Source of the DNA: Tricholomella constricta
Taxonomy: Eukaryota > Basidiomycota > Agaricomycetes > Agaricales > Lyophyllaceae
Assembly: GCA_013368375.1 (NCBI GenBank)
Contig: JAACJP010000020.1
Span: 372,001-436,000, forward strand
Direction: 5' to 3'
Length of the DNA stretch: 64,000 bases
The position numbers and the translations under genes are program-made. This document shows, piece by piece, positions 23,301-64,000 of the stretch (its first letter is position 1; each line of letters opens with the position of its first letter). The notes beneath the pieces are model-generated. The model was not told the origin of the DNA and did no database searches. It worked only from the letters and a program-made list of their open reading frames with translations.

Positions 23301-24503
23301 GTTCTGTGAAAGGTGCAAGGCTGACCAGCAGCTATAATTTGGGCCACAACAGGTGAGTATCCACTCAAGCTAACTGGTGCCATGTTGAATGTTTGGGGCT
23401 ATTTTAAAACAGTGGGTAGGTGTTGTTGGTGTTCTGTGTAAAGTGCAAGGCTGACCAGCAGCTGTGATTGGGCCCGCAACAGGTGAGTATCATCTTAACT
23501 AACCTGTGCTGTGCTAAATGCCTGAGACTACTTTTGACAGACTGTAAGTAGTGTCTATGTGAGATTCAAATACCATTTTTATTTTTATACTAACATTATT
23601 TGATCTCAGGTAAGTGTTGTCTCTAATTGAACAAAGCAAGATCTACACAATCCTGAATGTTGTTGCATATAGATGGTAAGTTTTCTATTCTTTACTCTTG
23701 ATTTATTTCTTCTCTATTCCTGCACATTTGCCTTAAGCACAACTCATTTCCTGATCCCTTCATTAATGGTGTTTTTTTTTTCAGCTGGTATGTATGCCTT
23801 ACCTTAATTCTTGGTAGTCAATTCTCAACTTTGGCCATCACTGTAGGGAAATTATGTGAGCTTGCAAGTTACTCAATATTTCACTTCATACTCATTCAAT
23901 CATTCAGAACAAAGTGGGCTTTATTATGAATTTCAATTTTTTCTTGCCATACAAGTCGTGAACAGGCATCCTTCTATTTGGCCATAACACAACAATTATC
24001 TAGCACTGTAAGTGAAAGTGTTGTGACCACATTAATTGTTTTTTTCTTAATCTTTGGTAATTTCTCAGGCTGCATCTCTTCCATCAAAACAACAAGAACT
24101 CATTTTCCTTATCATGTGTACTGTTCATACACTCTTATTTTTGTGCTGCCATTTACTGAATTATTTTTCAGCACTTGCAATTGTTGCAGAACATTCATTT
24201 CCTATCTTTGGTTCCCACCGCTCCTTCCAACAGTCACTCAAAGTCTATTCTCAATCACTTCAATGTGAATCAGTGCTCAATGCTGTTCACCTCCTTGGCA
24301 GCAAAAGCAAAGCTATTCACATCCCTGGTGGTCAAAGCACCAACAAAAACTGGATCAGAAAGCTAAAGAACAAGATTACAAAGAAGAAGATCGAAGTGAT
24401 GCCAGAGACACTGATCAAAGTGTCACCAGAGACACTGATCAACATCATTAAAGAGAACACTTTGGGTATAGTTGCTGCTCTTACTTTATGTACAAATGAC
24501 TGA
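20326..24503 (+). CDS. P-loop GTPase of the mushroom-expanded G-domain family, split by a minisatellite
   Basis: Exons splice in frame from ATG 20326: RFRILIIGRANAGKTTILQK (Walker A/G1 at about residue 30), VDLAIINPSRKRGVHDINHE, FRSNPGFIFHDSRGFESGGV (DxxG, G3), DRLVTRAEEFFFNECGTGK, VPVILVFTRFDGFVVS (TRFD in the G4 position), PPKSYVCLQ, and ALIQVFVSTQQSMSELCTKH. The next exon ends SLTYMASWYTHSL at about 21536. The following 2 kb is a tandem array full of splice signals. Beyond it, 24160-24470 encodes ALAIVAEHSFPIFGSHRSF and QQSLKVYSQSLQCESVLNAV, which resembles the helical C-terminus of the same family. Placing that last block in this gene is inference. The role of these small GTPases is unknown. 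Confidence 0.65.
21600..23560 (+). repeat. Minisatellite of about 129-base units carrying splice donor, branch point and acceptor in every unit
   Basis: About 14-15 units. AG|GTGAGT (once GTAAGT) recurs at 21726, 21854, 21983, 22112, 22240, 22367, 22496, 22623, 22752, 22882, 23011, 23143, 23353 and 23483, mostly 127-132 bases apart. Each unit reads: GTGAGTATCCACCCTAGC, then TAACCTG (branch-like), TTTTTGACAG (acceptor-like), three bases, GTAAGT, then GGCTGACCAGCAG, CTGTGATTTGGCC and CACAACAG. One unit near 23220 is truncated. Units 22623-22882 and 23226-23483 are near-identical, so a block of two units was duplicated recently. AT-richer than the flanking genes. Confidence 0.9.
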
Positions 24504-47516: not shown

Positions 47517-48185
47517 TCACCCCCCCTTTTGAATCGCAACGACTCGGTGCGGGGTAGCGGTGGCGAAGATGGCCGGGGATAATGTGAACATGCCACGAAT
47601 GTGGCGGGCAGCGTCGGGGTTGTCGCGGTGGAACTTGCGTACCAGATCGGGGGCGGTGACATTTTCGCGAGGTTCCCATGAAGCTTCTTCGTAACCATAG
47701 CCTTTCCACAGGACCTTGTACTGTAGTTTTTTGCGGAAGGTTCGGCTATCGAGGATCTTTTCAACTTCGTAATGGGGTTCGTCGTCGATTATGTCGGGGG
47801 GAGGAGGAGGATTGGACCGACGACCTTCGATCGGATCAGCGACGGCGGGGATGAGTTTCACGACGTGGAAGACTGGGTGGATGTGCTTCATGGACTGAGG
47901 CAGCAGGAGGCGGTATGCGAGCGGGCCGACTCGCCTTTGCACGACAAAAGGGCCAAGGTAGCGATGCGACAATTTCTTAGATGGTCGGGTCGTAGAAATG
48001 TCGGTCGCGTCCAAGTACACCTTGTCGCCAGGCTGGTAGTCGGGTGTTGGGGCGTGTCGCTGGTTGTAGTACCGCTCCATGTCGTCTTTGGCCTTTGAGA
48101 GCGCTGCCTTGGCTTCTTCCTGTGCTTCCTTCATGCGCTCCACAAACTCGTCGGCCGACTCATTCTTGGAAGCGCCCCGACGTGG
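47517..48185 (-). CDS. Outer chromovirus Pol, C-terminal part: integrase end and chromodomain
   Basis: Reads EPRRGASKNESADEFVERM then KEAQEEAKAALSKAKDDMER, the post-core integrase helix, GPFVVQRRVGPLAYRLLLP (SH3-like/GPY-F module), MKHIHPVFHVVKLIP, then a chromodomain YEVEKILDSRTFRKKLQYKV, LWKGYGYEEASWEPRENVT. It ends about 60 residues later at a stop next to the polypurine tract. Chromodomains direct such elements to heterochromatin marks (H3K9me for the family). Separated from the rest of Pol by the inner element. Confidence 0.92.
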   Translation of the reverse strand, partial: PRRGASKNESADEFVERMKEAQEEAKAALSKAKDDMERYYNQRHAPTPDYQPGDKVYLDATDISTTRPSKKLSHRYLGPFVVQRRVGPLAYRLLLPQSMKHIHPVFHVVKLIPAVADPIEGRRSNPPPPPDIIDDEPHYEVEKILDSRTFRKKLQYKVLWKGYGYEEASWEPRENVTAPDLVRKFHRDNPDAARHIRGMFTLSPAIFATATPHRVVAIQKGG

Positions 48186-48190
48186 CTCAA
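48186..48190. repeat. Target-site duplication CTCAA, left
   Basis: Identical CTCAA at 59202-59206 on the other side of the inner element. Confidence 0.95.
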
Positions 48191-48414
48191 TGTAACGGAG
48201 TTACAAGTTGGGCGACCTTGCTGTTCACGCTGCACGTAAGCTTGACTAGTCGTCTATTTGCTACGTGTAGGTGGTGTACAAGGTCTGCTCTATACTTATG
48301 TAATATAGTTTATTAAATAGGCAACACCAGACGGTGTTGCCAAACAATAACATAATCGTGTCGATAAGATACGATTAGATAAGATTAATAGATAAGATGG
48401 TAAGCGCCCTTACA
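48191..48414 (-). repeat. 3' LTR of the inner element
   Basis: 224 bases, TGTAACGGAG..GCGCCCTTACA. Contains a 9-bp perfect hairpin GGCAACACC-AGAC-GGTGTTGCC at 48320-48341 next to TATTTAATA, a possible promoter or R-region structure. Confidence 0.97.
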
Positions 48415-48852
48415 TACCCCCCTTTAAGATCGCTAATAGCGATCTTTACCAAGGAGTAAAGCAAGAATATAGGGGAACAATGAGGGTATAGGTCCCGGCG
48501 ACCTATACCCACTAATCAAATACATATATGCGTAGCATTGCTACGTGTGTCGGTTAGAACCAAAAAAGACGAGGGTCTAGGTCCCGGCGACCTCTACCCA
48601 GTAATATACTTGCAGGAATACGTATTGATGATACGTATTTCTGGCTTATACCATAGTGGATACGATAGCTCCACTGCCCGGCCTCACTGTGCCGTGCGAC
48701 GATTCCCAGAACGGAGAACAACCGGTGTTGCGTTTTTGTTGAATACGCCACCTGCGGGTTGCTTCTCGAGAGTCAGGGGGTTCGCCCCTGACAATGGCGG
48801 TCGTCCCGACGGTGATCCCTACGTGTCGCGGATCGGTTCGTTGACGGGGGGA
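48415..48852 (-). other. Hairpin-rich untranslated 3' region of the inner element
   Basis: No ORF. Inverted repeats in quick succession: AAGATCGCT-AAT-AGCGATCTT (48426-48446); GGGTATAGGTC-CCGGC-GACCTATACCC (48484-48510, 11 bp); CGTAGC-ATT-GCTACG (48531-48545); a second, imperfect copy of the CCGGC-loop hairpin near 48573; AATACGTAT-TGATG-ATACGTATT (48617-48639). Confidence 0.85.
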
Positions 48853-51771
48853 TTAAGTTGTCTCCCCGACCACTGGCTCCATCACGGTATCAAAGTCGGT
48901 GGAGTTGGGATCCACCGGACCCGGGCTGGTGGTAATCACCGCCTGTGATAGAGGACCTGTTAGGTCCGACACGGGGTCCACTGGGGTTTCGACAGCGTCA
49001 ATTGACGCTGCCGCGACTGTGGATAATGTCGCGGGGGCAGGATTAGCTGCCGCCGGGTCCGCCATTTCGACGTTATTAAACGTCGATCCCGATGAAGCGG
49101 GAGTGTGCAGGTCCGGAGGGGGAAATTCCCCCGTCCGAACACGGAGTTCTCGGAAATGTGGGTCTTCGCCCACAAGCATCCATTCCGAGCTTACTAGACA
49201 GTCTAGCAACTCGTTCTGGAGTTCCACGTGCATCAGCGTTTGGATGCGCGTGATGTCGTCGGTGGTAGGATGATACCACCCATCCCACTCCGGAATGGCG
49301 GGGGGAACGCCCAATTGGTCGAGACGACGTACTCGATCGTCGTCGGCGCTGCGGTACAGTTCCTTGAGAGGACCTGAATTAATGTAGTTATGGTCTAAAA
49401 AGTGTAGACCATAGGTGTAGCTGTGGTGTATCCAGCTAATTGGGATACCGCTATTGATAAGGTGTTGGATAACACCTTCTTGCGTGACCCGTCCCTCTGG
49501 GGCGCTCACTTGGATGCGAGGGATAATAACCTCGGGCCCTACGATCGGCGTGAAGGGCCGATCCGGATTGGCCTCGTTGTGAGCCGCCACTGCCTCTGAA
49601 TAAAGGTATGGGCGGGCGGTGATGGTTGCGAATATGCGCATAAACCATGCCCGCAAACTGTTCGGTGTTGGCGCAAGCGCATTGGCCAACAAGTATCCCC
49701 AAGTTCCGCGACGGTGAACGCGGAACCGGTAATCCATGACAATACCTCTGTATTGGTTTCTGGAACCAATACGACCATGGTGAATCATGTGTCGACACCA
49801 ATGCTCGACATCAAATGCATGACCAGGACCTGGCTGTGGCAGTCCGGCACCGCGCGTTGGCTTATCAGGCCGGTAAATGAAGGCCTTTCCAGGCCTCCTA
49901 ATCGGGCCGGCCTGCCAGATGGGCGACCGTCTATCGAACGGTCGGGCGACGTCCTTGAACTCCTCCATGGCGATACGCGCCATAGCCCGGTCGCGCAAAT
50001 GGGGCGCTACCATCAAGGACAATCGCCGAAATTCCCTAAATAGCTGGAAGGCTTGAGCCAGCTCTTCGTCCGTCACTCCACGCGGCCGGGTGACTACCAG
50101 CGTATGGAGCTGGTCTACTTCACGAGGGTTCATTGGGAACCCGCGTGGTACGACAGCGTATAGCCGCCCAGTTGGGGGACGGGAGTTTTGTCCCGTCCCC
50201 AGTTCGCTTTCTGAAATGCGAACTGCTGGGGCCAGTGCAAAAGCCCGGTTCTGGGCGGACGATACATATATCGTCCGCGATACCATGTCCCAGAAGCGAT
50301 TATCCCTCTCGTGGCGGTTGTCTATAAAAACCACCCCGAGCTCGTCGGGAATCCGCCCTGTCGCTTCTTTCTCCGCCTTGCGAGCCAAATTCTCGCGTTG
50401 TTTCTTCTTCCCGGCAGCCTTTTTCTTGCTGACGGGCTTGTCGTCGTCTGACGACTCGCCCCAATCCGACTCCGCCATAGCCTCGGCATAGGGGTCGGAC
50501 GCTTTCTGCTTGCCTTTGCTAGGAGGCGGCGATGGGGGTTGCACCATCGTAGTAGGTGGTGCGGGGAATGGCGCCGGCAACGTATATTTGCCGATAGGCT
50601 CCTTTTTCTGGGAGCCTCGTTCTGGATTCCGCACCCGGCTGTCTCCCGGGGGCGGTAGGGGGCGCGCTGCGGAGTCCTGCGGCGTTACTACCGCGGACAT
50701 CGTTGACGTCGACCCGCTCCCCTCGGGTTCTCGGCCAGGTAAGGGGCGCACTTGGCGCGACCCTCGGTCCTCATCCCGTTGGACACCATAATCAAGTGGG
50801 CGTTCATCACGCCTCACTTCCTGGTCGGGGTGTCGTCCCTGGCGGCGCCTGGGCTCACTCCATGCCTGCCGTGTTGGTTCGTACGAGGTGCGTTCTTCTC
50901 GACGCACCTCCGTTTGCTGTCTCTTCATGGGTCGGGATGATGGTCCCTCCCCTCGATCCGGCGACGCTACAGCCGGCCGTTTTCTTGCCAGGCTGAGTTG
51001 CTCAGCCATGGCCGTCTCTCTCGCCTTTACACGTGCCAGCTCCGCGCGGGCTCCCTCGTATCCATCTAGCAGCTGGGTAATGACCAGCTGCACCATTCCG
51101 TCGTCCAAGAAATCACAGAATTCGCGGTGAATACCCGCGTCTTCCAGTCGGTCCAAGATGGAGTTGAGGAGACCATCGTTTTCGGATGGTCTCCGCGAAC
51201 TTGATGCAGACGACGCTCTTCGGTCGTCTGTCGGTCGTCGCGAACTCGATGCAACTGCGTTCTGCGCCACGGGACGTCGCGACGATTCGCCACGTGGCGC
51301 CTGCGCCGGAGGAGTCGGTGCCCGTAGACGACTCTGGTCGTCTACCTCCATCTGCTCCGATTCATTGTACCGCGTTTGTTGCGGTACCGGTGGCATGGAC
51401 ATCTGGGGATACCACATCGACTGCGGGTACCCCATCTGGCTCGACATTGATGGCATCTGTTGAAATGCCATCGACGGTTGATAAGAACCACCCATAGGTG
51501 GTTGTTGCCCTTGATGGATCTGTTGGCTCATGTGGCCAACCGGCGAGTATGGTTGGTGCCCCTGATGGGGCGGTTGGCTCATCTGGCCAACCGACGGGTA
51601 CTGGTATATATGGGGCTGCGGCCCCATGTAGGTAGGATGCGGGGGCGCGTTTTCCGCGCGCCCCTGCAGTTCCCCCCCACTTGAACTCGTTCCCGGGTTC
51701 AAATTTTGAAATTCGGTGCGGCTGTCGCCGCCCCGAGTCGCGTCGTTGCTTGAGCTTTGGTTGGGGTTCAT
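48853..51771 (-). CDS. 972-residue accessory ORF of the inner element, function unknown
   Basis: Intact frame from ATG 51771, between pol and the 3' LTR, where env or accessory genes sit. Residues 1-150 are Gln/Pro/Met-rich with a repeated YxPVGxMSQ..HQGxQP motif. Residues 150-220 are Ser/Arg-rich (SSRRPTDDRRASSASSSRRP). Next is a helical stretch (LLNSILDRLEDAGIHREFCD, AELARVKARETAMAEQLSLA), then charged disorder with KKKAAGKKKQRENLARKAEK. From about residue 480 there is a folded-looking domain (GVVFIDNRHERDNRFWDMVS, IVMDYRFRVHRRGTWGYLLA, IPISWIHHSYTYGLHFLDHN). No signal peptide or membrane segment, so not an envelope. No known fold recognised. Low-complexity head plus basic patch could suit RNA or particle binding, but that is speculation. 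Confidence 0.85.
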   Translation of the reverse strand: MNPNQSSSNDATRGGDSRTEFQNLNPGTSSSGGELQGRAENAPPHPTYMGPQPHIYQYPSVGQMSQPPHQGHQPYSPVGHMSQQIHQGQQPPMGGSYQPSMAFQQMPSMSSQMGYPQSMWYPQMSMPPVPQQTRYNESEQMEVDDQSRLRAPTPPAQAPRGESSRRPVAQNAVASSSRRPTDDRRASSASSSRRPSENDGLLNSILDRLEDAGIHREFCDFLDDGMVQLVITQLLDGYEGARAELARVKARETAMAEQLSLARKRPAVASPDRGEGPSSRPMKRQQTEVRREERTSYEPTRQAWSEPRRRQGRHPDQEVRRDERPLDYGVQRDEDRGSRQVRPLPGREPEGSGSTSTMSAVVTPQDSAARPLPPPGDSRVRNPERGSQKKEPIGKYTLPAPFPAPPTTMVQPPSPPPSKGKQKASDPYAEAMAESDWGESSDDDKPVSKKKAAGKKKQRENLARKAEKEATGRIPDELGVVFIDNRHERDNRFWDMVSRTIYVSSAQNRAFALAPAVRISESELGTGQNSRPPTGRLYAVVPRGFPMNPREVDQLHTLVVTRPRGVTDEELAQAFQLFREFRRLSLMVAPHLRDRAMARIAMEEFKDVARPFDRRSPIWQAGPIRRPGKAFIYRPDKPTRGAGLPQPGPGHAFDVEHWCRHMIHHGRIGSRNQYRGIVMDYRFRVHRRGTWGYLLANALAPTPNSLRAWFMRIFATITARPYLYSEAVAAHNEANPDRPFTPIVGPEVIIPRIQVSAPEGRVTQEGVIQHLINSGIPISWIHHSYTYGLHFLDHNYINSGPLKELYRSADDDRVRRLDQLGVPPAIPEWDGWYHPTTDDITRIQTLMHVELQNELLDCLVSSEWMLVGEDPHFRELRVRTGEFPPPDLHTPASSGSTFNNVEMADPAAANPAPATLSTVAAASIDAVETPVDPVSDLTGPLSQAVITTSPGPVDPNSTDFDTVMEPVVGETT

Positions 51772-51899
51772 TGTGTTGGTGGTGGTGGTTGAAGTTGATT
51801 ACGCGTACTAGCGCGAAAAAACATATTTACCCTCCTGTCATACCTTTTGATGGTTATGTAATTGTCTTGATCGCCGTGGTCACATGATCGCGCCACAGT

Positions 51900-54800
51900 C
51901 TAGACTCGTCGCGGCAACTTAGACGCGCTCCTTACTCCCTGCAATTCAAGATAGCGGTCGAGTGCCGCTAGCTTGTTGCAGTTCGCGTGCGGTTCCCAGG
52001 TGGTGTCTCCTAGGCTCCACCGAACTTGGTATTCGATAGTGTTATCTGGGGTCCATCTATGGCCCAAGATCTCTTCCACAAACCATTCATGATTATCCGG
52101 CGCCCCAAAATCATAGGGCTCCGGATGGGTTCGATTTGGAAACATTGTATCATTCGTTGCGTAGTAGGGACGCAACAGAGAAATGTGAAACGCTGGATGT
52201 ATCCGGCGCTCCATAAGCGCCATCGGCAATTCCAACGTGTAGTTCGAGGTTTCTGGCATGGCTTTCAAGACTTTGTAGGGCCCGACAAACTTCGGGCACA
52301 GTTTTCGGGCACGTCCCTTGGGGAGATTCAGATTCTTGGTTGATAGATACACCAAGTCACCCCCATTTATATCAGGGCCGACCGCGCGACGCCTGTTAGC
52401 CTCGCGCGTTTGAAATACGCGCGCCTCGATGATAGCGTCATGCGCCTCCGCTATGTTTTGCAATGTGCGCTCGGCATATTCCCGAATTCCCTTTGGAATT
52501 ACGCTGTCTGAGCGTATCTCCTTCAACATGGATGGCATATAGCCACTATTGAGCTCGAATGGAGCGAACTTGGTAGTGGCCGATACACTTGCGTTTATCG
52601 CAAATTCGGCCATGGGTGCACGGTCTACCCAATCCTTCTGGTCATGCCTCACGACGGCGCGAAATATTTGTCCAATGCTACGATTGGCCCGCTCCGTCTG
52701 TCCATCCGTTTGAGGGTGGAATGAAGTCGACATTAGGAGCTTAGCTCCTAATAATTTATGTAGTTCTCGCCACCAGCGCGATGTAAACTTAGAGTCTCGA
52801 TCGCTTACAATCGAACTCGGTAGGCCATGTAGCCTAACAATCTCCCGTAGATATACCCAAGATAATTGGGCTGCGGTCATAGTCGTATGTATAGGTATCA
52901 GATGCACCATACTTGTCATGCGACAAATTACTACCCAAAGGTAGTTAAATCCCTTAGATTCTGGGAATGGACCGATAAAGTCCATTCCGATGGAGTCCCA
53001 GGGCTTCGTTGGTACGGGCAGAGAATGTAATTTCCCTGACGGCTTCTGGTTGGACGTCTTGATCTGCTGGCAGTATTCGCACGTTTTACAAAACGTACGC
53101 ACGGTAGTGGCTAACGAGGGCCACCAGTACCATCGTCGGATATATTCCGTTGTTCGTTCCGCACCGAAGTGGCCCATAGTTTTATGGGCTTGCTCAACGA
53201 TTGGTGTGATGAGCTTCGGCTCTCGCGGTATGCATAGAACGCTGTCATTGGCAGTGTTCTTGGTCCATATCAGCTTGTCTTTCGTAGTAAAGTTACGAAA
53301 GTCTTTGGGGGTTTCGATAATAGCCGAAAATAGTTTATCCTTTGGGTAACCGAGGATAACTTCACGGAGGATATTCGCATCCGTCTTATCTGGAGGAGGG
53401 ACAACTGTATCCCTCCCTAACACAATATCTCCAACAGTGCGTTCACGCTCGGTTGGACTTATACTCTCCTGAGGGTGAGATGATGGTCGAGATGCAACAC
53501 TTGGTGCCGCCTCTTCCATAATTTGGGCTTCAATATCCCGGTCCTCCTGGCGTTCTTGAAGCCGCTTGCTGCGACGTATCTCTACGTCCTTCATTGCTCG
53601 AATTTCGACCACTTTCTCCACGATCTCATGGTATCGTGGAACTGGTAGATCTTCTCCAGTGGGGTCGATTCTTGCATCGGCGGCTACGAAGTCGTGGACA
53701 TCGTATCTATCTTGCGGATTATCGCTCTCAAAGTATCGCGATAAGCAGTCGGCGACTTTATTCAGTTCGCCTTTCACATACGTGATGTCGAAGTTAAATC
53801 GCGACATATACTCCATCCAGCGACGCTGCCTAGGTGATAAGTTCACCTGGGTCTTAAAGAACTCGAGGGCTTTGTGGTCGGTAATAATGTGGATTTTATA
53901 TCCCACAAGTTTATCCTCCCACTTTAATAGCGCCTCAAGAATCGCCAACATTTCTAATTCGTGCACAGCATAATTTTGCTGCGCATTAGTAAATTTTCTA
54001 GACATGAATCCCGCCGGTTGAGCTTGGATCCATGTAGGTCCTTGCCCATACATCGCACCGACGCCTGACTTCGAGGCGTCACATATGATCCAAATTGGTT
54101 CGCCTGTCTTCGGTTGTATAGGCCGAATTATTGGTGTCGTGCAACATATATGCTTGATCATCTCAAAGCATCGTTGGTGAATAGGCCTCCAGTAGAATGG
54201 CGACCCATTTTCGGTCATCGCCATTAATGGTCCAGTGTACGCTGATATATCTGGGAGAAATTGTCCCAGATAATTCACCAGTCCAACAAATCGTTGGATA
54301 TCATTGTAGTTCCGAGGTATTCTCCATTCACGGATCCGTGCCAATTTATCCGCGTCGGGATGAATTCCTTGGTCGTCAATTATATGACCAAGGCAGTCGA
54401 CGCGATCCGAATACAGTTCGCATTTCTTCCACTTCAAATATAGGGATTGTTCGCGTAATCGCTCGAACACTACTCGTAGATGATCTTCATGCTCTTCGAT
54501 GGAATTTGAAAATATGAATATATCGTCCAAGTATACATGCATAAACTTCCCAATGACGTCCCGAAAAACGGACATCATTAACCGTTGAAATGTTGCGGGG
54601 GCATTACAGTCCCCGATTTGCATTATGTTGCTAACGTACGTTCCCGCTATTGTTGCAAAGGCGGTCTTGTGTACGTCCTTCTCGAGGATGCGTACTTGTT
54701 CATACGCATCCGTTAAATCGATCTTTGACCGTATCTTTCCCCGGGCAACATCCTCACGGATGACTTCCTGGTCCGGCAAGGGCGTAACGTCCTTTATAGT

Positions 54801-55797
54801 ATTATCGTTACGTTGCCGTGCGTCTAAAGGTGTTCTCAGGGAGCCGTCCTTTTTCGGGATACATAGCAGCGGCGCTGCTTGCTTCACCGATCGCGGCTCC
54901 CACCACTTGGAGTCCGTATACCGGTTAACCTTCGCGTAGAATTCCTCGCGAAGGGACATTGGACACCTCGGTGCATGATACTGGTATTGTTTCTCGTCGT
55001 CGACGAGGGTTATCTCGTGGTTGACTTCTCGCCAGGGTGGTAACTGTTGTTTCGTACCACCCACCATATCTTCAAATTCGTCATGCCATTGCTGACGAAG
55101 TCGTGGATAATCTTCTCTGGTAAGGCCTCCATTATGTGCCTTATCCTTTCCTTCTACAATTCTTACAGCACGGATATACACTGTGTCTTTATTGCTAGGT
55201 TTATCATCATACCTAGCCCGTAGTTTTACGAGAGCAAATTCACTCTCGTCCTTCACTGGCAACCGATATAACGGCCGTTTCGCCCGTTGTGTATTCACCG
55301 GAAAGTTCATTTCCGTTGGCTCGGACACTTCCTCAGGCCGAGGATTTCGGTACGCTTTTCCTAGCGTGCCTACATTCCGTCCTTCGTGTGCCCGCATGGA
55401 CGCTATTACTGCATTCCATTCTTGTGGCATTCTCGGATCGAACATCCACTCATATTGTGGATGTGGGTTGGGTCGGTCCCAAAATGATCGATTACTTGTA
55501 TTAGAACACGGTTCTGATCCCGTATCCTTGTCGGCTTCGTTCGTCTTTAGCGCTTCATCGTCGCACTGACGTTCTTCGCATGGCTTGTTAGCCTGTTCTT
55601 GTTCCTTCGAAGGCTCCGTTTGTGCCTTCTGCTGTCGTCGTTGATTTTTCTTCGTCTTCGGAGGTGGCTTATCCCCCTCCTTAAGAGTTTCTTGAAACTC
55701 TTCATCGGATAGTAGAAGTGCTGGGTGATCCTTTGGTAGGCTATTTATCGGCCTACCCTCATCCTCAGGATTGTCGTCATCCTCTACTGTTACTTTG
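51900..55797 (-). CDS. Inner chromovirus Pol: RT, RNase H, integrase, chromodomain
   Basis: Open from just after a UGA (55800-55802) with no ATG until 55445, in the same frame as the upstream protease ORF. From the ATG: linker; RT (LLCIPKKDGSLRTPLDARQR, KIDLTDAYEQVRI, CNAPATFQRLM, MHVYLDDIFIFSN with the YLDD catalytic box at about residue 305); RNase H (WIICDASKSGVGAMYGQ, ELEMLAILEALLKWEDKL, IITDHKALEF); integrase HHCC finger (HKTMGHFGAERT..CKTCEYCQQIK); core DDE (DSIGMDFIGPFPE, IVSDRDSKF, HPQTDGQTERANRS); GPY/F region (KFVGPYKVLKAM); chromodomain (WFVEEILGHRWTPDNTIEYQ, VRWSLGDTTWEPHANC). It ends KLPRRV, stop 51900-51902. All catalytic residues present. Confidence 0.93.
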
Positions 55798-55799
55798 AG

Positions 55800-56960
55800 T
55801 CATTCTTTTCGTTTTTCCAACGAGCGATGGCGCCTAATACGGCCATCGGTATCTTCCACTTTGACTCTCGTCGCTGGTGTAGCGACTCCGTTGACGATTA
55901 CTTCGTCACGGTTGAAGTCCAGCACGACTTTATTAGCGCGCATAAACGGCGTGCCTATGATCACGTCGTATCGATCAAAGTTAGCCAGGTCCATGTAAAT
56001 CTTGCCTTTAAACCCTGGAAGGGCGGTTTCCACTGTCGTGCCAAAGTTTACTGTGGCTCGACTTCCTTTCGTTCCGAGCTGTAGGATTAATGGGTCCTCC
56101 AGTGGGAACACTCGAATGTCGGCCACTTGAGCGAACGACGGTGTAAGTCCGGTAGTCGTACTTCCGGAGTCCCATAAGGTCCAGGCTTGATGGCCACCTA
56201 CGTTAATGTAGGTGACAAGGCACTCCTTGTCCTTTATCAATACTACTGGACGAGCGATCTTGTCTCTGCCCGTCCGCACTTTCACTTTGCGAATTGGTGG
56301 CTTATCATTGCGTTCTTCTGACGCAATGACTTCCGTCATCGCAAACATACGCTCGGTTTCATCGTCCCGAGCATAATATTCATTCTCGTAGACATCCATG
56401 TCTACGAATTCATCGTCCGCTTCTTCTTTGTCCGCCTCTGTATCGGGGCGTCCAGTTTCTCGTCCATCCGGCTCCTCAGGCGAAGTATCTTCGTCGTCCG
56501 CCTCGATCGCTGCGTCAATTGCCGCTGTATGAGCGGCCCTTAGGAATGCTCGGGGTTGCTTCTTGGGCTTCTTGCAATCCTTTGCGAAATGCCCTAGTCC
56601 TCCACAATTAAAGCACACCTCGCCAGGTGGGTGATTGTGGTGGCCATGATTTTTCGTATGATCGTGTAGCGGACGATCTCCAGTCTTTACTGCTAGTTTC
56701 TCGACGTGGGGCTTTTGTTCTCCGCGTCCTTGTGGTTCCTGAAACGTCGGTTTGGTATATGGCTTCGCGTTAGCTGCGCCAGGACGTCGAAAATTGATAA
56801 AGTTATTTTGTGGGACGTTCACTCGCCCCCCGTCTGGTTTCCTCAGCTGGCTCGGTTGAACCCGTTGAGCGGTTATATTCCGCTCGAAGTAATCAGCCGT
56901 TTTCTGGGTTGCTTGGTGTGCTAATCCCACCGCTAGGAACTCTTGTGCTGTGTTGATTTC
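55800..56960 (-). CDS. Inner chromovirus zinc knuckle and aspartic protease
   Basis: Frame is -1 relative to gag and has no ATG at its head (the first in-frame possible start is GTG). Reads INTAQEFLAVGLAHQATQKT, joining gag logically, then knuckle CFNCGGLGHFAKDC, acidic linker, then retropepsin WTLWDSGSTTTGLTPSFAQV (DSGS active site) and VIIGTPFMRANKVVLDF. It stops at UGA 55800-55802 (context GAA UGA CUC), with the Pol frame continuing directly. Confidence 0.9.
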   Translation of the reverse strand, partial: EINTAQEFLAVGLAHQATQKTADYFERNITAQRVQPSQLRKPDGGRVNVPQNNFINFRRPGAANAKPYTKPTFQEPQGRGEQKPHVEKLAVKTGDRPLHDHTKNHGHHNHPPGEVCFNCGGLGHFAKDCKKPKKQPRAFLRAAHTAAIDAAIEADDEDTSPEEPDGRETGRPDTEADKEEADDEFVDMDVYENEYYARDDETERMFAMTEVIASEERNDKPPIRKVKVRTGRDKIARPVVLIKDKECLVTYINVGGHQAWTLWDSGSTTTGLTPSFAQVADIRVFPLEDPLILQLGTKGSRATVNFGTTVETALPGFKGKIYMDLANFDRYDVIIGTPFMRANKVVLDFNRDEVIVNGVATPATRVKVEDTDGRIRRHRSLEKRKE

Positions 56961-58873
56961 GGGTGATACCCGTCATCAAATAGCGCCTTCCTCATTTCAC
57001 GCGGAAGTGTCTTGAGGAATTTCTCCAAGAACGTCCAATCATCCGTTCTTGCTGCCATGTTCATGGCATGATCAACAAGGTCATCATGCAAACCTTGTAT
57101 GCCTTTGCTCGCCGAGTAAGTAACGGCATTGAAGTCGTTACGGGCGTCCTGCATGGTTGACGGTAACACGAATCGATCATATAATCCTAGTATGACGTCT
57201 TCAAACGTCCAGTACTGCTTATCGCGGTTCACGTGAATAACGTGGCGATTGTACCACTTCCGAGCTTCACCGTCGAGGAACTCGGATGTTATCAGAACGC
57301 GCTCTTGGTCGCGTTCTGCTCCTCCAAATTGGCTCACAGCCAACATAACTACAAGGCTCGACAACCATTCTTCCAAGTCGCCGAACTTCGCACTTCCGCT
57401 ATACGTGCCCACGGACTTTGCGTCCGCACGGCGGGACTTCATCCCGTCAGGTAGCGATAGTCGTACTGATAGTCGCTCGTGCATCAGTTGATGCAGCCGT
57501 TCGTGCATCTTCGTTTTATGCTGCTCTCCTGCAGCATGAATTCCGTCCGCGATGGATTGACTCCGCCGGATCGGTGCAGGCATAGAGTAGCCTCGAGTCT
57601 GAGCTCGAAGCGGTGCCGATGCCGAGGGTTCGCTAATGCGAACCCGCATATCTTGACGGCCGTTAGCCATCGCCGTCGTAGGATTTCCTCCGACGGCCCC
57701 AGTTCTCATTCCAATCTCTGAACCCTGAGTTTGCGAGGCCCATTGCCGCGCCATCTCGTCGACGGGCATATGCCCCTCAAAGACGACCCCCTGATCGTCG
57801 TACTTCGTGAATTTGCTCTTTGATAAATCAGCGTTTCTCAATCGCTGATATACGACCCGCGTGTCCCACTCCTTGGCCAAAGGAGTCCGATCCCTAGGGT
57901 CTTTAGGGACTTGAATAACTGGCGCACTTTCGTTGCCAGCTGCCTGCGCGCTTGGTTCATTGCGCACAGTTGGTGGTTCTAGTGTAGCTTCACTAGTCGG
58001 AGCTCCTTTAGAACCCTGTGGTTGCGCATAATGCCCTTCCAGGGTCATTCTCTCGCGTTTCGCGGCAGCCGCTCGACGACGATAATTGTCGTCGGATTCT
58101 CCTGTTTGCCGCGCTTGATGCAGCACTGATACTGCCATAGCCGCCTCATCCAGGGGTTGATTTGATCCCGAGGCTATTGCTTGAGGCGTGAATAGGTCGA
58201 TTACTCGACCTTTTCCTTTGTCGATTGGGACACTCGTAATTCTGGGTGTCCCGGCAATTGAACTGCCTGCCCCGGTTGAAGTTCCCTTAGGGTACTTCCT
58301 TCTATATTCCGTGAATACTACGGACAACGCCTCCATGTATTGGTCGGCATATGCTTGCGCGACCAATTCCTTAACCGTGTCTACTCCGGTGAATCGCAGA
58401 ACGATCCTATCCGCTCGTTCCTCCAATCGCCTTCGCCGATGTTCGCTTAGAACATCGGTGGTCTTCCAGAATCGCGTCACACGCACGGCCAGCTCTACGT
58501 GGTCGATAGTTTCTTCTTCAACCTCGTCGGGGTCAGATAAATCGTCCTGGTCCGCTTCAACCTTCACGATGGTCGGGGTGATCACCCCGCGCGATCGACT
58601 TGATAGGCGGCTGCCTGGCCATCTCGCGGATGCCGCCCCAGGTCGGTGTGACCTGGCCAGTTCGTCGGCCAGGTTCCCAGGCATATTGCTGCGCGAGCTC
58701 GGCCGGAATTCTCCAGATTCTAGTCCTAAGAGATTCTGAGCTGGTGGGCTTTGGCCACCAGCTACCAGTCCGACTTCCACTGGGTCCAGTGGACGTTGTG
58801 ATGGAGGATGCGCTGTGAGTGCATCCTCGTGGTCCGGAATTCGGTCTTTTCCGGGTGTGGAATTTGGTGTCAT
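56933..58873 (-). CDS. Inner chromovirus Gag
   Basis: Starts MTPNSTPGKDRIPDHEDALT. A long disordered N-terminal region is followed by the retrotransposon capsid domain near the C-terminus: FGDLEEWLSSLVVMLAVSQF, ARKWYNRHVIHVNRDKQYWT, FEDVILGLYDRFVLPSTMQ, GIQGLHDDLVDHAMNMAART, FLKTLPREMRKALFDDGYHP. The frame ends STQHKSS, stop 56933-56935. The knuckle is encoded only after a -1 frame change into the next ORF. Confidence 0.9.
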   Translation of the reverse strand: MTPNSTPGKDRIPDHEDALTAHPPSQRPLDPVEVGLVAGGQSPPAQNLLGLESGEFRPSSRSNMPGNLADELARSHRPGAASARWPGSRLSSRSRGVITPTIVKVEADQDDLSDPDEVEEETIDHVELAVRVTRFWKTTDVLSEHRRRRLEERADRIVLRFTGVDTVKELVAQAYADQYMEALSVVFTEYRRKYPKGTSTGAGSSIAGTPRITSVPIDKGKGRVIDLFTPQAIASGSNQPLDEAAMAVSVLHQARQTGESDDNYRRRAAAAKRERMTLEGHYAQPQGSKGAPTSEATLEPPTVRNEPSAQAAGNESAPVIQVPKDPRDRTPLAKEWDTRVVYQRLRNADLSKSKFTKYDDQGVVFEGHMPVDEMARQWASQTQGSEIGMRTGAVGGNPTTAMANGRQDMRVRISEPSASAPLRAQTRGYSMPAPIRRSQSIADGIHAAGEQHKTKMHERLHQLMHERLSVRLSLPDGMKSRRADAKSVGTYSGSAKFGDLEEWLSSLVVMLAVSQFGGAERDQERVLITSEFLDGEARKWYNRHVIHVNRDKQYWTFEDVILGLYDRFVLPSTMQDARNDFNAVTYSASKGIQGLHDDLVDHAMNMAARTDDWTFLEKFLKTLPREMRKALFDDGYHPKSTQHKSS

Positions 58874-58977
58874 CGGGTCTCGGAAATTGGTGGGTTCTTT
58901 GATGTTGATAATAGAGTTTTGATTTTGACGTGGCTGCGTGGGTACGCAGCAATAAGAAGCTAGGTAGCTTAAAAAAA

Positions 58978-59201
58978 TGTAACGGAGTTACAAGTTGGGC
59001 GACCTTGCTGTTCACGCTGCACGTAAGCTTGACTAGTCGTCTATTTGCTACGTGTAGGTGGTGTACAAGGTCTGCTCTATACTTATGTAATATAGTTTAT
59101 TAAATAGGCAACACCAGACGGTGTTGCCAAACAATAACATAATCGTGTCGATAAGATACGATTAGATAAGATTAATAGATAAGATGGTAAGCGCCCTTAC
59201 A
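58978..59201 (-). repeat. 5' LTR of the inner element
   Basis: 224 bases, no difference seen from 48191-48414. Hairpin copy at 59107-59128. Confidence 0.97.
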
Positions 59202-59206
59202 CTCAA
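59202..59206. repeat. Target-site duplication CTCAA, right
   Basis: Matches 48186-48190 and lies in the integrase codons of the outer element. Confidence 0.95.
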
Positions 59207-62200
59207 AGCCCATGCGTGGATGCCGACCAGTGTCGAGCAGGAAGGGGGTCTGCTGCGTCGCCGAATGTACATGGTTGTTGTAACTGAATTCGGCGTCGGG
59301 CAAGAGGTCCTCCCAGTCGTTCTGACGCTCATTGCAGAAGACCCGCAAGAACTGTTCCAGCTCCTGGTTGACGCGTTCGGTCTGTCCGTCGGTCTGCGGG
59401 TGGTACGCCGTCGAAGCCGACAGCTTGATACCCAGGAGTCGGTACAGTTCGCGCGTGAATTCAGCGACGAACTGTGGACCTCGATCGGAGACAAAGGCAT
59501 CTGGGAGACCGTGGAGCTTCCAGACGTGGCGCCGGTAGAGGTTCGCAGCCCCCAAAGCCGAACAAGTCGTGTGCGACGCAATGAAGTGCGCGCGTTTTCC
59601 GACCGAATCCACGACGTTCATGATCGCGTCGTGGCCATTGGACTCGGGGAGTTCGGTGATGAAGTCGACCGACACGACATTCCATCGACCTTCGGGAATG
59701 GGGAGCGGCTGCAGCTGTCCGACGGGGAGTTGGCGGCGGGGTTTCGTGCGCAAGCACATGTCGCAGGTGCTGGTGTAGGAACCGATGAAGCGCGACATCT
59801 GGGGCCACCAGTAGTTGCGCGACACCAGCTCTAACGTCTTCCAGCGACCTGGGTGACCGGCGACCTTGGAGTCGTGGTGGTGCTCCACGATGCGTCGGCG
59901 GAGGTCAGGAACGTTCGGGACATAGATCCGTCCACAGAACGTGAGCAGACCGCCTTCCTCTCCCCACTCGCCAAAGCGAAGGGAGCGACCGGCGATCTTA
60001 GATGCCCTGACCAGTTGCGCCGCTTTCGCGACCGCATCCTCCTGTGCGCCATCGCGGTTGCCTTTGCGAATTGCCTTCAGCACGTCATCCTCTTCTCCGA
60101 CCAATACAAGACCTTCAGTCGCACGAACCGCGAAGAACTCGGGTTTGAGCAGTACGATGTCGGCGTTGTCAGCACTTCCGTCGCCATGGTCGGAGCGGCG
60201 CGATAACGCGTCGGGCTTGCCCATGCTACGGCCAGGACGGTGGTGGAGGGCGAAGTCGAAGTTAGCGAGGTAGAGCGACCATCGGGCTTGACGCCGATTG
60301 AGTTTCTTCGCGGTGAGGAAGTACTCAAGGTTCTTGTGGTCGGTCCAGATCTCCACCTTGTGCTTTGCGCCTTCTACGAAGTGTCGCCACTCCTCCAGAG
60401 ACCGGATGATCGCTAGCATCTCCTTGTCATGGATCTCGTAGTTCCGCTCGACGGCGTTCAAGCTCTTTGAGTAGAACGCGACGGGGTGCCATTTACCGTC
60501 GGACGGCGACTCTTGCGACAGGACCGCGCCCGTCGCGAAGTCAGATGAATCGGCTTTGATGCGGTACGGTCGGTCGTCGTCAGGGAACATGAGAACGGGC
60601 CCCGATGTGATCGCCGACTTCAGAAGGCCAAAGGCCGACTGCTCCGACTCTCCCCATCGCCAGGCGACGTCCTTGCCCGTCAGATCAAACAGGGGTCGGG
60701 CGTGATGCGAGAAGTCCTGGATGAACCGTCGGTAGAAGTTAGTGAAGCCTAGGAATGCTTGCACTTCCTTCTTGTTCTTCGGCGCTGGCCATTCCAACAC
60801 TCCGGCGACCTTAACAGGGTCCATCTCCGCTTGCCCTTGCGAAATGATCAGCCCCAGATACTCGATCTTGGTCTGTTCGAATTCGCATTTCTCGGGCTTT
60901 AAGAACAACTGATGTTCGCGGAGTCGGTCCAGTACTAATCGCGCGACCCGACGGTGTTCCTCTAGAGTCTTGGTATAAATCAAGATGTCGTCGAGGTACA
61001 CGCAAACAACACCTTCGGCGATCAGATCGCGGAAAATATCATTTATCATGGTCTGAAATGTGGCGGGGCTGTTCGTGAGGCCGAAGAACATGACGAGCGG
61101 CTCGAAGAGACCGCGGTTCGTCCGAAACGCTGCCTTCCACTCGTCGCCTTCCTTGATCCGAACATTGTTGTACCCCCATCGGACGTCCAGCTTGGTGAAG
61201 TACCGCGCGCCGCAAAGGTTATTCACCAGTTCGCTAATGAGGGGCAGCGGGTATCGGTTCTTCACCGTGAGCGCATTGAGCGTCCGATAGTCCTGTACCA
61301 GGCGGAGCGACCCGTCCTTCTTCTTGATGAAGAAGACCGGTGATGCCATGGGCGACTTGGACGGTCGGATACGACCCGTCTCGAGATTCTCTTTGAGGAA
61401 CGCGTCGAGTTCAACCTGTTCCGCCGGTGACAGCGGGTAGACCTTCGTGCCGGTTGGTGACGCGCCCGGCTCTAGTTCGATCGCATGGTCCCATTGCTTG
61501 CGCTCTGGGAGCTCATCGAACGCAACTTTGGAGAAGACATCTTCGAAGTCGTGGAGGTGGGTGGGTACGGCATCGCGGAACGTTTTGGGCACGGAGTTAG
61601 CAGCGTGCGCTTCTGCAAGTCGCTGCGATGTCGTTTGGCTGGCCCGAATATGTTCGGCGGTCGGGGCCGGATGGATCGCGGTCGCGAAGATGCGATCGCC
61701 ATTCAGGAAGGTCTCCGTCAGGAAGTCGTCGGACTCTGGGTCGGGTTCCTCCAGGATCGGAGTGTAGGGGAGGGACTCGTCGTCATCAGAGTCGTCCTCC
61801 ACGTACGGATTGGTCGGGGCCCGCAGGTCAGGCTCAATCGTCGGGATGCCATCGGCTCGACAGGCACGGATTGCTGCGCGCACTTTGGTACGTGCGCGCC
61901 GATCGGCTTTGACCTCATCCTTGCAGGTGTCGCACTGCATCGGACAGCGACTCATCTTCACCTCTTTGGTCTCCCAGTCGATCTCAGGGTTGTGGTTTTT
62001 AAGCCAGTTGAACCCGAGGATCATGTCGTGCTTGCCTAACTGGGTGACCCCGAAGACGGCTCGTTCGGTATGACCATTGTATCGCAAGACAGCTTCTACG
62101 ATGCAAGAGACCGAACCGCCTTCGTTGAGGGTGCCGTCTACGTTGTAAACTGGGGATGGCCGACTAAGCACCTTGGTCGTGAGTTTGTGTTTCTCGACGA

Positions 62201-62563
62201 AAGCGATATTGAGAAAGCTGCCGGTCGCTCCGCTGTCCACTAGCGCAGTGACGGCGTGCGACTCCTGGGTGTCGGTGGTCTCCAGTTCAACGTTGAGCCA
62301 CAGGGATCTGGGGCAGGGGGAGGCAGCGGCGATGAAGCGACTAGGAAGTCGCTTTTCCCAATGGGGTAGGCCACGACGCGACGGAGCGATCGGCTTTGCG
62401 ACTGCGATCGGTGTCGTCGGGTCGGAGGGGTTTTGTACGTCTTTGTCGGTCGGTGCACTCGTAGGAATAGCAGCAATAATAGGTGTATTGGCATATTCTA
62501 CGGACAGTGGAGCGAACCGATTATGACTAGACAACGGGGGCGTACGTTCCACCCGTTGTGCGA
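59207..62563 (-). CDS. Outer chromovirus Pol, N-terminal part: protease, RT, RNase H, integrase core
   Basis: Entered by -1 frameshift from gag (no ATG near the head). Protease ALVDSGATGSFLNIAFVEKH (DSGA) at about residue 105; a linker with CPMQCDTCKDEVK; RT FFIKKKDGSLRLVQDYRTLN, FTKLDVRWGYNNVRIKEGDE and VCVYLDDILIYTK at about 530; RNase H KADSSDFATGAVLSQ, IHDKEMLAIIRSLEEWRHFV, IWTDHKNLEYFL; integrase finger HHDSKVAGHPGRW..CDMCLRTK; core VVSVDFITELPESNGHDAIM, FVSDRGPQF and YHPQTDGQTERVNQELEQF. It stops at HPRMGFE where the inner element begins. No internal stop or missing catalytic residue seen. Confidence 0.94.
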
Positions 62564-63808
62564 TTAAAAACCCTCCTCAGCGTCGGAGGTGCCCGCGTCG
62601 GCCGACGATGGAGTCTGGTCGGCAGGAACTGCGTCTTTGCGGGCTAGACGCTCCATGATGAGCGCCTCCAGCTCGTCGTCGAGCATGTGGCGCACATCCC
62701 AGCGCAAGGGACAGTCACGCGAGTAGTGACCCTTCTTCTTGCACCGGAAGCAGTGGTCGTCGGCAGGTGCGACCCGGTCGCGCATCCGATCGACATCCAT
62801 TGGGACGCCCTGGGGGAGCGGCCTAGGGGCTGGTGCGATGGAAGCGCGAGGGGCGGGAGGGGCAGAAGCGGGAGTGGGAATGGGAGTGGGGGCAGTAGCG
62901 AACGCCCATCGTGCGGCTACGGCGGTGGTTGGGCGGCCGTCCGGCGCCTTTGTCGGGACCATCCGACGGTGGAAGTCGTCCTCCGACCTCATGATGAAGT
63001 CTTGAGAACGGGCGATCCTCAGCCACTCCTCAATCTTCTCGTCGTGCGGGCGACCCGTGGTGATGCTCCCAAGTCGCCTCGAAAGCTTTGGGTCCATGCC
63101 CCGACGGAATTTGAGGACCAGGTGGCGCCCATCGGGGTAGCCTGCCTTGACCCACAGGGATCGGAACGAGTCGATGTACTCGTCGATCGACCGACCGTTC
63201 TGGAAGTACGCCGTCGACTCCAAGATGAGCGCGGCGTCAGCGACTTCGTCGAAGAGGAAGAACTCGCCGCGGAAGGTGTCTTCGAAGTCCTTCCAGGCGG
63301 GAAAGACGTCCTTGGCGGTTCCGAACTGGAACACCCGACTGACGAAGTCGGCGGCTCGTCCGTGCTGCATGTACGACAGCACCCATACGATTCGGGCGTG
63401 GTCGTCGGCGAAACTTCCCCCGCACAAGGAGAAGTAGAGGTTGCAGGCGTTCCAGAATGCGCGACCGCCTGACCGGGCGCCGTCGTAAATGGGAGGGGGC
63501 GACGGTCGGAGGTGGTGCGATCCTGATTGCGGAGCGCCTGGCAGCAGAGGGGTCGTCGCAGGCGACGGAGGGATCGTCTCAGGCGGCGGAGGGGTCGTGT
63601 CCGCTTCGGGAGCAGCGGGGGTGGGATTGGGGGGTGTCCCCGACATGAGTTTTTCGAAAAGAGCGGAGAGGCGGTCCATAGAGGCCGAGTTGGATGTGTT
63701 GGAGGCGGAGAGAGCCGAAATCGTGGCTTCCATATTCGCCAACCGCTCCTCCGTCGTGAGGAAGGGAGAGAACGGTCGTTCGAGCGGCATGTCACCAAAT
63801 TCGGACAT
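62564..63808 (-). CDS. Outer chromovirus Gag
   Basis: Starts MSEFGDMPLERPFSPFLTTE, a short coiled coil (ERLANMEATISALSASNTS), Pro/Thr-rich linker, capsid domain (GRAFWNACNLYFSLCGGSFA, WVLSYMQHGRAADFVSRVFQ, WKDFEDTFRGEFFLFDEVAD, YIDSFRSLWVKAGYPDGRHL, VLKFRRGMDPKLSRRLGS), and a CCHC knuckle CFRCKKKGHYSRDC near residue 350. It stops at TAA 62564-62566 right after the slippery heptamer GGGTTTT. Confidence 0.94.
   Translation of the reverse strand: MSEFGDMPLERPFSPFLTTEERLANMEATISALSASNTSNSASMDRLSALFEKLMSGTPPNPTPAAPEADTTPPPPETIPPSPATTPLLPGAPQSGSHHLRPSPPPIYDGARSGGRAFWNACNLYFSLCGGSFADDHARIVWVLSYMQHGRAADFVSRVFQFGTAKDVFPAWKDFEDTFRGEFFLFDEVADAALILESTAYFQNGRSIDEYIDSFRSLWVKAGYPDGRHLVLKFRRGMDPKLSRRLGSITTGRPHDEKIEEWLRIARSQDFIMRSEDDFHRRMVPTKAPDGRPTTAVAARWAFATAPTPIPTPASAPPAPRASIAPAPRPLPQGVPMDVDRMRDRVAPADDHCFRCKKKGHYSRDCPLRWDVRHMLDDELEALIMERLARKDAVPADQTPSSADAGTSDAEEGF
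62567..62573 (-). promoter_or_regulatory. Programmed -1 frameshift site GGGTTTT at the gag/pol junction
   Basis: In the gag frame the codons are GAG GGT TTT TAA, so the heptamer G GGT TTT fits X XXY YYZ exactly. Slipping back one base avoids TAA and continues into the pol frame (TTA ATC GCA CAA CGG GTG). Confidence 0.8.
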
Positions 63809-63922
63809 CTCGAAACGGGACTGGGCGGGCGATCAGAGCGAGCGCGCGTTGGACGGTCGCGTGTAGCAGACGCGTGTTTCGGCGCGGAAGCTGGTTGGCC
63901 GGCTTCGTCGGGTTTCTAAGAG

Positions 63923-63932
63923 ACACTATTCT
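63923..63932 (-). promoter_or_regulatory. Putative self-priming binding site of the outer chromovirus
   Basis: Two bases after the 5' LTR the element's sense strand reads AGAATAGTGT, the exact complement of ACACTATTCT in the LTR (3' LTR copy 47181-47190), located about 31 bases after TATATA where transcription should start. Confidence 0.6.
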
Positions 63933-63934
63933 GC

Positions 63935-64000
63935 TGTTAGGGCGACCTTTAGAGCAGAGCTTAGTCGTACTGGCAAAGGGGAATCCAAAGTTATATTGAT
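63935..64000 (-). repeat. 5' LTR of the outer chromovirus, cut by the window edge
   Basis: TGTTAGGGCGACC onward equals 47066 onward. Only about 66 of the expected 451 bases are inside the window. Confidence 0.95.

Follow-up and report, generated by a model that had tools for sequence, protein, structure and literature searches.

The stretch of DNA analysed here, called the window below, comprises 64,000 nt from the basidiomycete Tricholomella constricta (contig JAACJP010000020.1, positions 372,001 to 436,000), and its minus strand carries at 48189..59201 a Ty3-type retrotransposon with long terminal repeats (LTRs), which is also the unit in which short perfect hairpins are dense. The 5' LTR (58976..59201) and the 3' LTR (48189..48414), of 226 bp each, are 100% identical, which indicates a young insertion. 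Between them follow, in sense order, the open reading frames ORF1 (684 aa, 56936..58987), ORF2 (390 aa, 55803..56972), pol (1299 aa, 51903..55799) and ORF981 (981 aa, 48856..51798), all lengths being stop-to-stop, and a 3' non-coding region of about 440 bp (48415..48852). As expected of Ty3/gypsy elements, the LTR pair encloses gag-pol with the domain order reverse transcriptase (RT)-RNaseH-integrase, and a CCHC knuckle and an aspartyl protease, both above their curated cut-offs, are encoded upstream of the RT in ORF2. Pol also holds an SH3 domain and, at the integrase C-terminus, a weak match to the chromodomain PF00385 (E=3.4e-4; 20.9 bits, curated cut-off 25.1); ORF1 gives a weak Ty3_capsid match below the curated cut-off, and ORF981 has no Pfam match.

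ORF2 and pol lie in a single frame and are separated by a UGA (55800..55802), followed in the window copy by CUC. The same layout was found in all 30 pol loci of this genome that were fetched (L011-L040; UGA CUA in 28, UGA CUC in 2), in loci L042 and L044 (UGA CUC), and in the more distant families D (UGA CUC) and E (UGA CUA). Since UGA CUA is a strong context for stop-codon readthrough, pol is probably made by readthrough of the UGA. ORF981 is uninterrupted in the window copy and has at least one in-frame stop, mostly TAG, in 45 of the 46 other copies listed (76-79% identity; the best 47 of 214 candidates in this genome were scored). In both L013 and L035 the frame is open from its start for 465-468 aa, up to the end of the locus, so that the stop would sit further on there; it may mark a recoding site or a shorter protein. 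The genome (44.1 Mb, 118 contigs) holds at least 36 pol copies of 92-100% identity, the best 36 of 1212 candidates having been scored. A protein search with pol gave 1602 relatives, and among the 120 listed the few named ones were all fungal; ORF981 had two, the closest named one from Lyophyllum atratum (61%). No relative turned up in viral contigs, whether these were scanned with the pol protein or with an alignment. All hairpin densities were counted on the DNA of this genome, the protein relatives elsewhere giving no DNA.

A scan for perfect stems of at least 7 bp with loops of 2-12 nt found 88 hairpins in the element, one per about 125 nt on average, with stems of 7 bp (44 hairpins), 8 bp (22), 9 bp (17), 10 bp (4) and 11 bp (1). 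An earlier note on this DNA had listed 19 of them by eye, and all 19 were recovered at their coordinates, the one at 51324-51345 with a stem of 9 bp and not of 8 bp as claimed; its more than 20 perfect stems of 8-11 bp became 44 with at least 8 bp in the full scan. In 20 dinucleotide shuffles of the element the means were 5.35 for stems of at least 7 bp (maximum 9) and 1.30 for at least 8 bp (maximum 4). Codon-preserving shuffles, which keep the protein and the codon use (200 per ORF, stems of at least 7 bp), gave means of 1.49 for ORF1 (22 seen, maximum 6), 0.81 for ORF2 (5 seen, maximum 4), 2.31 for pol (24 seen, maximum 8) and 2.88 for ORF981 (29 seen, maximum 8); the note had proposed this control, and 0.8-2.9 per ORF thus stands against 5-29 seen. 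Each LTR holds two further hairpins and the 3' non-coding region four, the latter all of at least 8 bp. The excess is therefore present in all four ORFs, in the 3' non-coding part and in the LTRs, with 4.3 (ORF2) to 11 (ORF1) hairpins per kb; the LTRs have 8.8 per kb and the 3' non-coding part 9.1. It stops at the borders of the element. The left part of the window (1-48190) is at chance level, with 26 hairpins and 22.2 expected (5 shuffles). A second, outer Ty3 element adjoins, with pol and gag frames at 59175-63832; the stretch 59202-64000 has 5 hairpins of at least 7 bp (3.65 expected) and 3 of at least 8 bp (0.70 expected; 20 shuffles, maximum 3), and codon shuffles give 3.12 for the outer pol (5 seen) and 0.65 for the outer gag (0 seen). 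The genome also holds the Ty3 elements L045 and L046, which have no hairpin in 4 kb each, and each of the 30 pol loci fetched has 42-62 of at least 7 bp per 6.9 kb. That the array arose by chance or reflects base composition or codon use is contradicted by the dinucleotide and the codon-preserving shuffles, by the neighbouring sequence and by the other Ty3 elements, and we regard this reading as practically negligible. Nor is the array shared by the region as a whole or by all Ty3 elements of this genome, as the left 48 kb, L045 and L046 are at chance, and a known RNA of Rfam was rejected too, with no match in 48100-59300 at E<=0.1.

The signal has a characteristic shape. Counting loops of 3-12 nt in the window element, 113 stems of 5 bp were seen where 63 were expected, 64 of 6 bp (expected 15), 42 of 7 bp (3.5) and 21 of 8 bp (0.9), so that the excess starts at 5 bp and rises with stem length, nearly all of it in loops of up to 12 nt; L013, L035, L044 and L042 have a similar profile. 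On the sense strand the loops are A-rich (36-40% against 28-29%), and inspection of the loop ends showed no shared motif. Folding predictions for pol contain more pairs with a span of up to 20 nt than shuffles do (z about 5) and fewer with a span of 61-100 nt (z about -3), and the paired fraction is hardly raised (0.585 against 0.556). A general compaction with longer loops was rejected, given the small excess of 8-bp stems at loops of 13-40 nt and this barely raised paired fraction. The minimum folding energy difference (MFED), taken over 350-nt fragments at a step of 175 with 8 dinucleotide shuffles, is 22.3% in sense and 19.2% in antisense for the window element, and all 61 fragments are positive; a folding energy this far above shuffles along the whole length is one mark of genome-scale ordered RNA structure (GORS). 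The sense/antisense values are 25.4/22.5 for L013, 22.9/19.9 for L035, 21.9/12.9 for family D and 20.9/20.9 for family E, as against 5.9/4.0 for the outer element, -1.0/2.4 for L045 and -4.1/0.4 for L046; L045, L046 and two 10-kb stretches of the window together range from -4.1 to 2.4%. Relative to codon shuffles, the sense folds of the four ORFs are 18.0-22.5% more stable. The sense RNA is thus predicted to fold about 22% more stably than shuffled sequence, with local pairs taking the place of long ones in pol. As for the outer element, 24 of its 26 fragments in 59202-64000 are positive in sense and its perfect hairpins are at most slightly enriched. The earlier note had not seen such a density in the outer pol. 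Of the outcomes that it named as refuting, hairpin counts as high in codon shuffles or in neighbouring sequence, neither was obtained, although the outer element does have a small folding excess.

The stems are also conserved beyond the protein. Between the window subfamily and L013, which share 85.5% identity over 6.9 kb, four-fold sites of pol, the ORF to which the site tests apply, differ at 6 of 65 positions in stems, 154 of 436 outside and 5 of 13 in loops; third positions differ at 0.092, 0.339 and 0.206, respectively, and the flanks adjoining the stems, at 0.41-0.46 for third positions, share none of the conservation. Synonymous difference in pol stems is hence about fourfold lower in this pair, and it is about halved between L013 and L035. 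In the comparison of single hairpins across loci, only whole-hairpin matches were kept and at most six arm pairs per hairpin were shown; for the counts of double changes, each base of a relative was taken from its best-scoring match, gapped pairs were excluded, and bases shared by overlapping frames were classed as non-coding. Copies and not rows were counted, because L006, L007 and L008 duplicate L044, L042 and L041, and several of L001-L005, as well as L011 and L012, lie in the window copy or a near-identical sister. In the comparison of related copies that the note had suggested, the window element was set against eight distinct copies; its stem pairs show 41 double changes, of which 32 are compensatory (compensatory/not: L013 2/0, L035 1/1, L032 1/1, L042 7/3, L044 7/2, L041 1/1, L009 7/0, L010 6/1). 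They span ORF1, pol, ORF981 and the 3' non-coding part; the copies are related and the events not independent. Simple arithmetic puts the doubles expected under independence at about 1.6 for L042, 2.0 for L044 and 1.6 for L009. Pol stems, in short, change less synonymously, and double changes at stem pairs are mostly compensatory.

The individual hairpins with stems of at least 8 bp, as found by the perfect-stem scan and all given for the minus strand (stem in bp/loop in nt in brackets; the 44 of 7 bp enter the counts only), illustrate both patterns. Arms are kept and loops vary across loci at 55035..55062 (8/12), 54686..54711 (9/8), 54367..54393 (8/11) and 51069..51091 (8/7), in all of which the arms are invariant in 32 matched loci, for the last including the window copy. 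Both arms are altered together at 58804..58828 (8/9; G-C to A-U in one copy, where L006 and L044 overlap), 57626..57645 (8/4; C-G to U-A in one copy, L008/L041), 51324..51345 (9/4; C-G to U-A in L044), 50255..50278 (10/4) and 50200..50225 (8/10), both with a compensatory change in L042, 49750..49772 (9/5; G-C to A-T in L009 and L010, a G.U state also being seen), 48993..49010 (8/2; in one copy, L007/L042, a compensatory change together with one A.C), 48484..48510 (11/5; an A-T/G-C compensatory change in L010) and the 7-bp stems at 50596 and 49666. At 51168..51194 (10/7) one pair occurs as C-G, U.G and U-A, that is, with the G.U intermediate among the copies, and compensatory transversions occur at 55683..55702 (9/2; A-T to C-G in L042, plus one A.C) and 48772..48792 (8/5; one copy, L007/L042). 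The relatives of 58651..58674 (8/8) have two G.U pairs; 52964..52988 (9/7) and 54248..54272 (9/7) have a hairpin at the same position in family D and family E, respectively. One hairpin lies in each LTR (48320..48341 and 59107..59128, both 9/4) and one directly before a purine tract (48426..48446, 9/3). The others are 48617..48639 (9/5), 49067..49086 (8/4), 49389..49413 (9/7), 49459..49478 (8/4), 49703..49726 (8/8), 50175..50200 (10/6), 50885..50910 (9/8), 51207..51230 (8/8), 51449..51472 (8/8), 51571..51593 (8/7), 51642..51664 (8/7), 52732..52752 (9/3), 53279..53301 (8/7), 53617..53640 (8/8), 54929..54954 (8/10), 55442..55464 (8/7), 56305..56329 (9/7), 56386..56407 (10/2), 57026..57051 (8/10), 57293..57318 (9/8), 58436..58458 (9/5), 58739..58763 (9/7) and 58776..58793 (8/2). 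Two look-alike hairpins in 48415-48852 have the same GCCGG loop; the stem is a perfect 11 bp in one of them and carries two neighbouring A/G mismatches in the other. In one copy (L007/L042) the perfect site is matched by the mismatched form, which may be the neighbouring look-alike.

Such an array could also be produced by mutation, if RT or repair switched to the nascent strand and perfected quasi-palindromes, so that hairpins accumulated with no benefit to the element. The perfect Watson-Crick stems with no preference for G.U pairs would suit this process, as would the confinement of loops to the short distances that local strand switching would give, and in ORF981 an indel of 18 nt, which the window copy and L012 lack, spans the inner part of a predicted hairpin. 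Around this indel (window 51150-51360, L044:8102-8330, L035:5960-6188) nearby hairpins share GACGAC/GTCGTC arms, which hints at gain or loss of hairpins through indels. If switching were the cause, however, pairs in which both partners are third codon positions should change together at a near neutral rate, and only 0-2 compensatory doubles per copy were found (L044 1/41, L013 2/26, L042 2/35, L035 1/26, L032 1/23, L041 0/15, L009 1/9, L010 1/9), where third positions outside stems differ at 23-41% in the same copies, a contrast for which no significance was computed. Such pairs were unchanged in 36 of 41 cases in L044, 23 of 26 in L013 and 30 of 35 in L042, the last of which, taken alone, would suit neutral correction. 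Most stem changes are one-sided, four-fold sites in pol stems are protected, and family D reaches its folding excess with few perfect hairpins, all of which speak against switching. Of the three causes offered in the earlier note, selection for RNA structure therefore fits best, given the slow synonymous change of stems, the compensatory doubles, the stabler folds and a modest sense bias in some families; template switching alone is disfavoured as an explanation because third-third pairs rarely change together, and we hold this reading to be improbable, though switching could have helped to create stems.

Relatives in the same genome carry the property in different forms. Hairpins in pol number 24 in the window element (codon-shuffle mean 2.9 in this comparison), 31 in L013 (2.5), 27 in L035 (2.9), 4 in family D (1.0) and 18 in family E (1.9), as against none in L045 (1.4) and L046 (1.1); D is represented by L048 (67.7% aa identity to the window pol) and E by L049 (55%), one copy each, with the codon tests made on the longest open segment (3417 and 3327 nt). 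The sense/antisense fold excess of pol over codon shuffles is 22.2/19.0 for the window element, 25.1/21.1 for L013, 22.8/18.9 for L035, 20.5/11.8 for D and 21.8/22.4 for E, compared with 3.7/2.6 for L045 and -4.2/0.2 for L046. Strong folding is thus common to all five sampled members, and it is in the window lineage and E that the perfect-hairpin style is most pronounced. In D, pairs spanning 26-40 nt are increased (z 5.4 and 3.6), with weaker rises at that span in L045 (z 2.5 and 3.2); the strong sense bias and few perfect hairpins of D may represent another route to the same property. Of the 24 hairpin centres of the window pol, 17 are shared with L013, 16 with L035 and 2 with D (0.23 by chance); those shared with E are near chance (window element 3, chance 1.05; L013 5, 1.36; L035 1, 1.18). 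As judged from these alignments, hairpin positions appear to be largely kept over short times and mostly turned over over long ones. Another hairpin-dense stretch lies behind an ORF1 part at L041:1922-10000, with 9 hairpins in 1967-2875 and 8 in 7515-8490; it has a 260-aa frame with a weak FW-TTDV-S-RRRRL motif in common with ORF1 (E=0.037) and is interrupted by a block that has inverted ends and contains repeated CCGCGGA-NN-TCCGCGG palindromes, many of them 79-89 bp apart. Elsewhere in the window, 21549-23491 holds tandem repeats that have diverged and are spaced at about 129 and 257 bp.

The array lies far beyond chance and codon content in coding and non-coding parts alike and recurs in relatives in the same genome. 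Therefore, we consider it probable that the RNA of this 11-kb Ty3-type element carries a genome-scale array of minimal hairpins under selection, its units having stems from 5 bp, clearest at 7-11 bp, and loops of about 3-12 nt. Selection on the full-length RNA would work through discrete local hairpins and not through fixed cis-elements, because positions are kept among close subfamilies and turned over at 55% aa identity at constant density. Total pairing hardly rises, so a shield that works by coverage is poorly supported; since positions turn over, fixed cis-signals do not fit either. Discrete local hairpins are compatible with dispersed Gag contacts or with insulation from long-range pairing. 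As to function, our tentative first choice is that the hairpins are dispersed contact points by which Gag/nucleocapsid compacts and packages the long RNA; protection from antisense or silencing machinery is somewhat less favoured, and insulation of the RNA against long-range misfolding would rank lower still. Two other Ty3 elements lack the hairpins, so silencing pressure does not force them on all Ty3 elements. The broader proposition, that this clade evolved a genome-long code of more than 100 minimal, near-perfect Watson-Crick hairpins as a distributed device for packaging or silencing evasion, is one to which we would give not quite even chances.

Several observations weigh against selection on RNA hairpins as proposed here. 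The excess is almost gone at loops of 13-40 nt, where 8-bp stems number 6 in the window element (3.2 expected), 6 in L013 (1.2), 7 in L035 (1.2), 6 in L044 (2.4) and 4 in L042 (2.5). The outer pol and gag have fold excesses over codon shuffles of 5.1/6.2 and 8.3/4.9 (sense/antisense). Between L013 and L035 the contrast at four-fold sites is weaker (stems 8/87, outside 68/431, loops 1/20; in the opposite direction, stems 5/75 and outside 70/444), loops being no freer than stems, and only 2 of 30 changed pairs between the window element and L013 are compensatory. Family D is nearer to the window element than E, yet it has few perfect hairpins with an equal folding excess. Furthermore, evolving stems show no preference for G.U over A.C: one-sided changes giving G.U, A.C or another pair number 62/51/49 for stems of the window element, 52/54/54 for L013, 63/55/55 for L044, 9/12/9 for L041 and 5/14/10 for L010, and one-mismatch stems with G.U or A.C number 5/12 in the window element, 2/4 in L013, 4/5 in L035, 1/7 in L044 and 4/4 in L042, one of the G.U/A.C analyses being made on haplotypes with at most two broken pairs. 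L013 (12 of 19 fragments, p=0.20) and E (5 of 11, p=0.58) have no significant sense bias. Together with antisense folding that is nearly as strong in most families, the last two points would suit selection on single-stranded DNA or on both strands, through cDNA intermediates or antisense RNA, and not mainly on sense RNA. Perfect stems, however, necessarily fold on both strands, and sense folding exceeds antisense in 22 of 31 non-overlapping fragments of the window element (p=0.006), in 10 of 11 of D (p=0.005) and in 19 of 26 of L044 (p=0.01), which is not independent of the window element. When several wobbles are allowed, sense G.U stems slightly exceed codon shuffles and A.C stems do not, and the A-richness of the sense loops points the same way. 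We therefore regard DNA or both strands as a rather unlikely target and sense RNA as the more likely one, for which the lack of a G.U preference is a puzzle.

Genome-long ordered RNA has been discussed mainly for RNA viruses, and the reason for its presence is unsettled. Here its carrier would be a mobile element of the chromosomes, present in dozens of close copies, and because unstructured Ty3 elements share the genome, packaging, silencing evasion and folding hygiene become testable against one another; synonymous sites in such transposons are moreover not neutral clocks. Searches of open-licence PMC papers turned up no LTR retrotransposon described as carrying such a hairpin array; as far as they reach, this would, if true, be the first genome-scale ordered RNA (or RNA and cDNA) architecture described in a mobile element. 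Yeast Ty3 and Ty1 are similar in that the genomic RNA of an LTR retrotransposon has structured regions within coding sequence, the Ty3 RNA being described as an A-rich mosaic (about 36% A) in which a well-folded core takes up about 19.4% of the sequence; they differ in that the sections describing this RNA mention no dense array of perfect hairpins (PMC11381356). The dispersed packaging signals of RNA viruses are likewise reported to consist of many short stem-loops across the genome (PMC6281560), and the present array differs in having no common loop motif by inspection of loop ends and no known capsid contact. The closest likeness in degree is to GORS, in which a genome-long folding excess likewise arises from many local stem-loops. 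In PMC7642675, MFED is given as about 15% for SARS-CoV-2, 7.5-10.7% for HCV and 12.5% for human pegivirus, with 23.4% as the highest value of earlier analyses of vertebrate RNA viruses; the 22.3% found here is of similar or greater size and lies close to the upper end of these values, the two sets having been obtained with different steps (175 here, 15 there), 8 shuffles here and another shuffle program there. What sets the present case apart from GORS is that its carrier is a retrotransposon and not an RNA virus, and that its stems are short and perfect.

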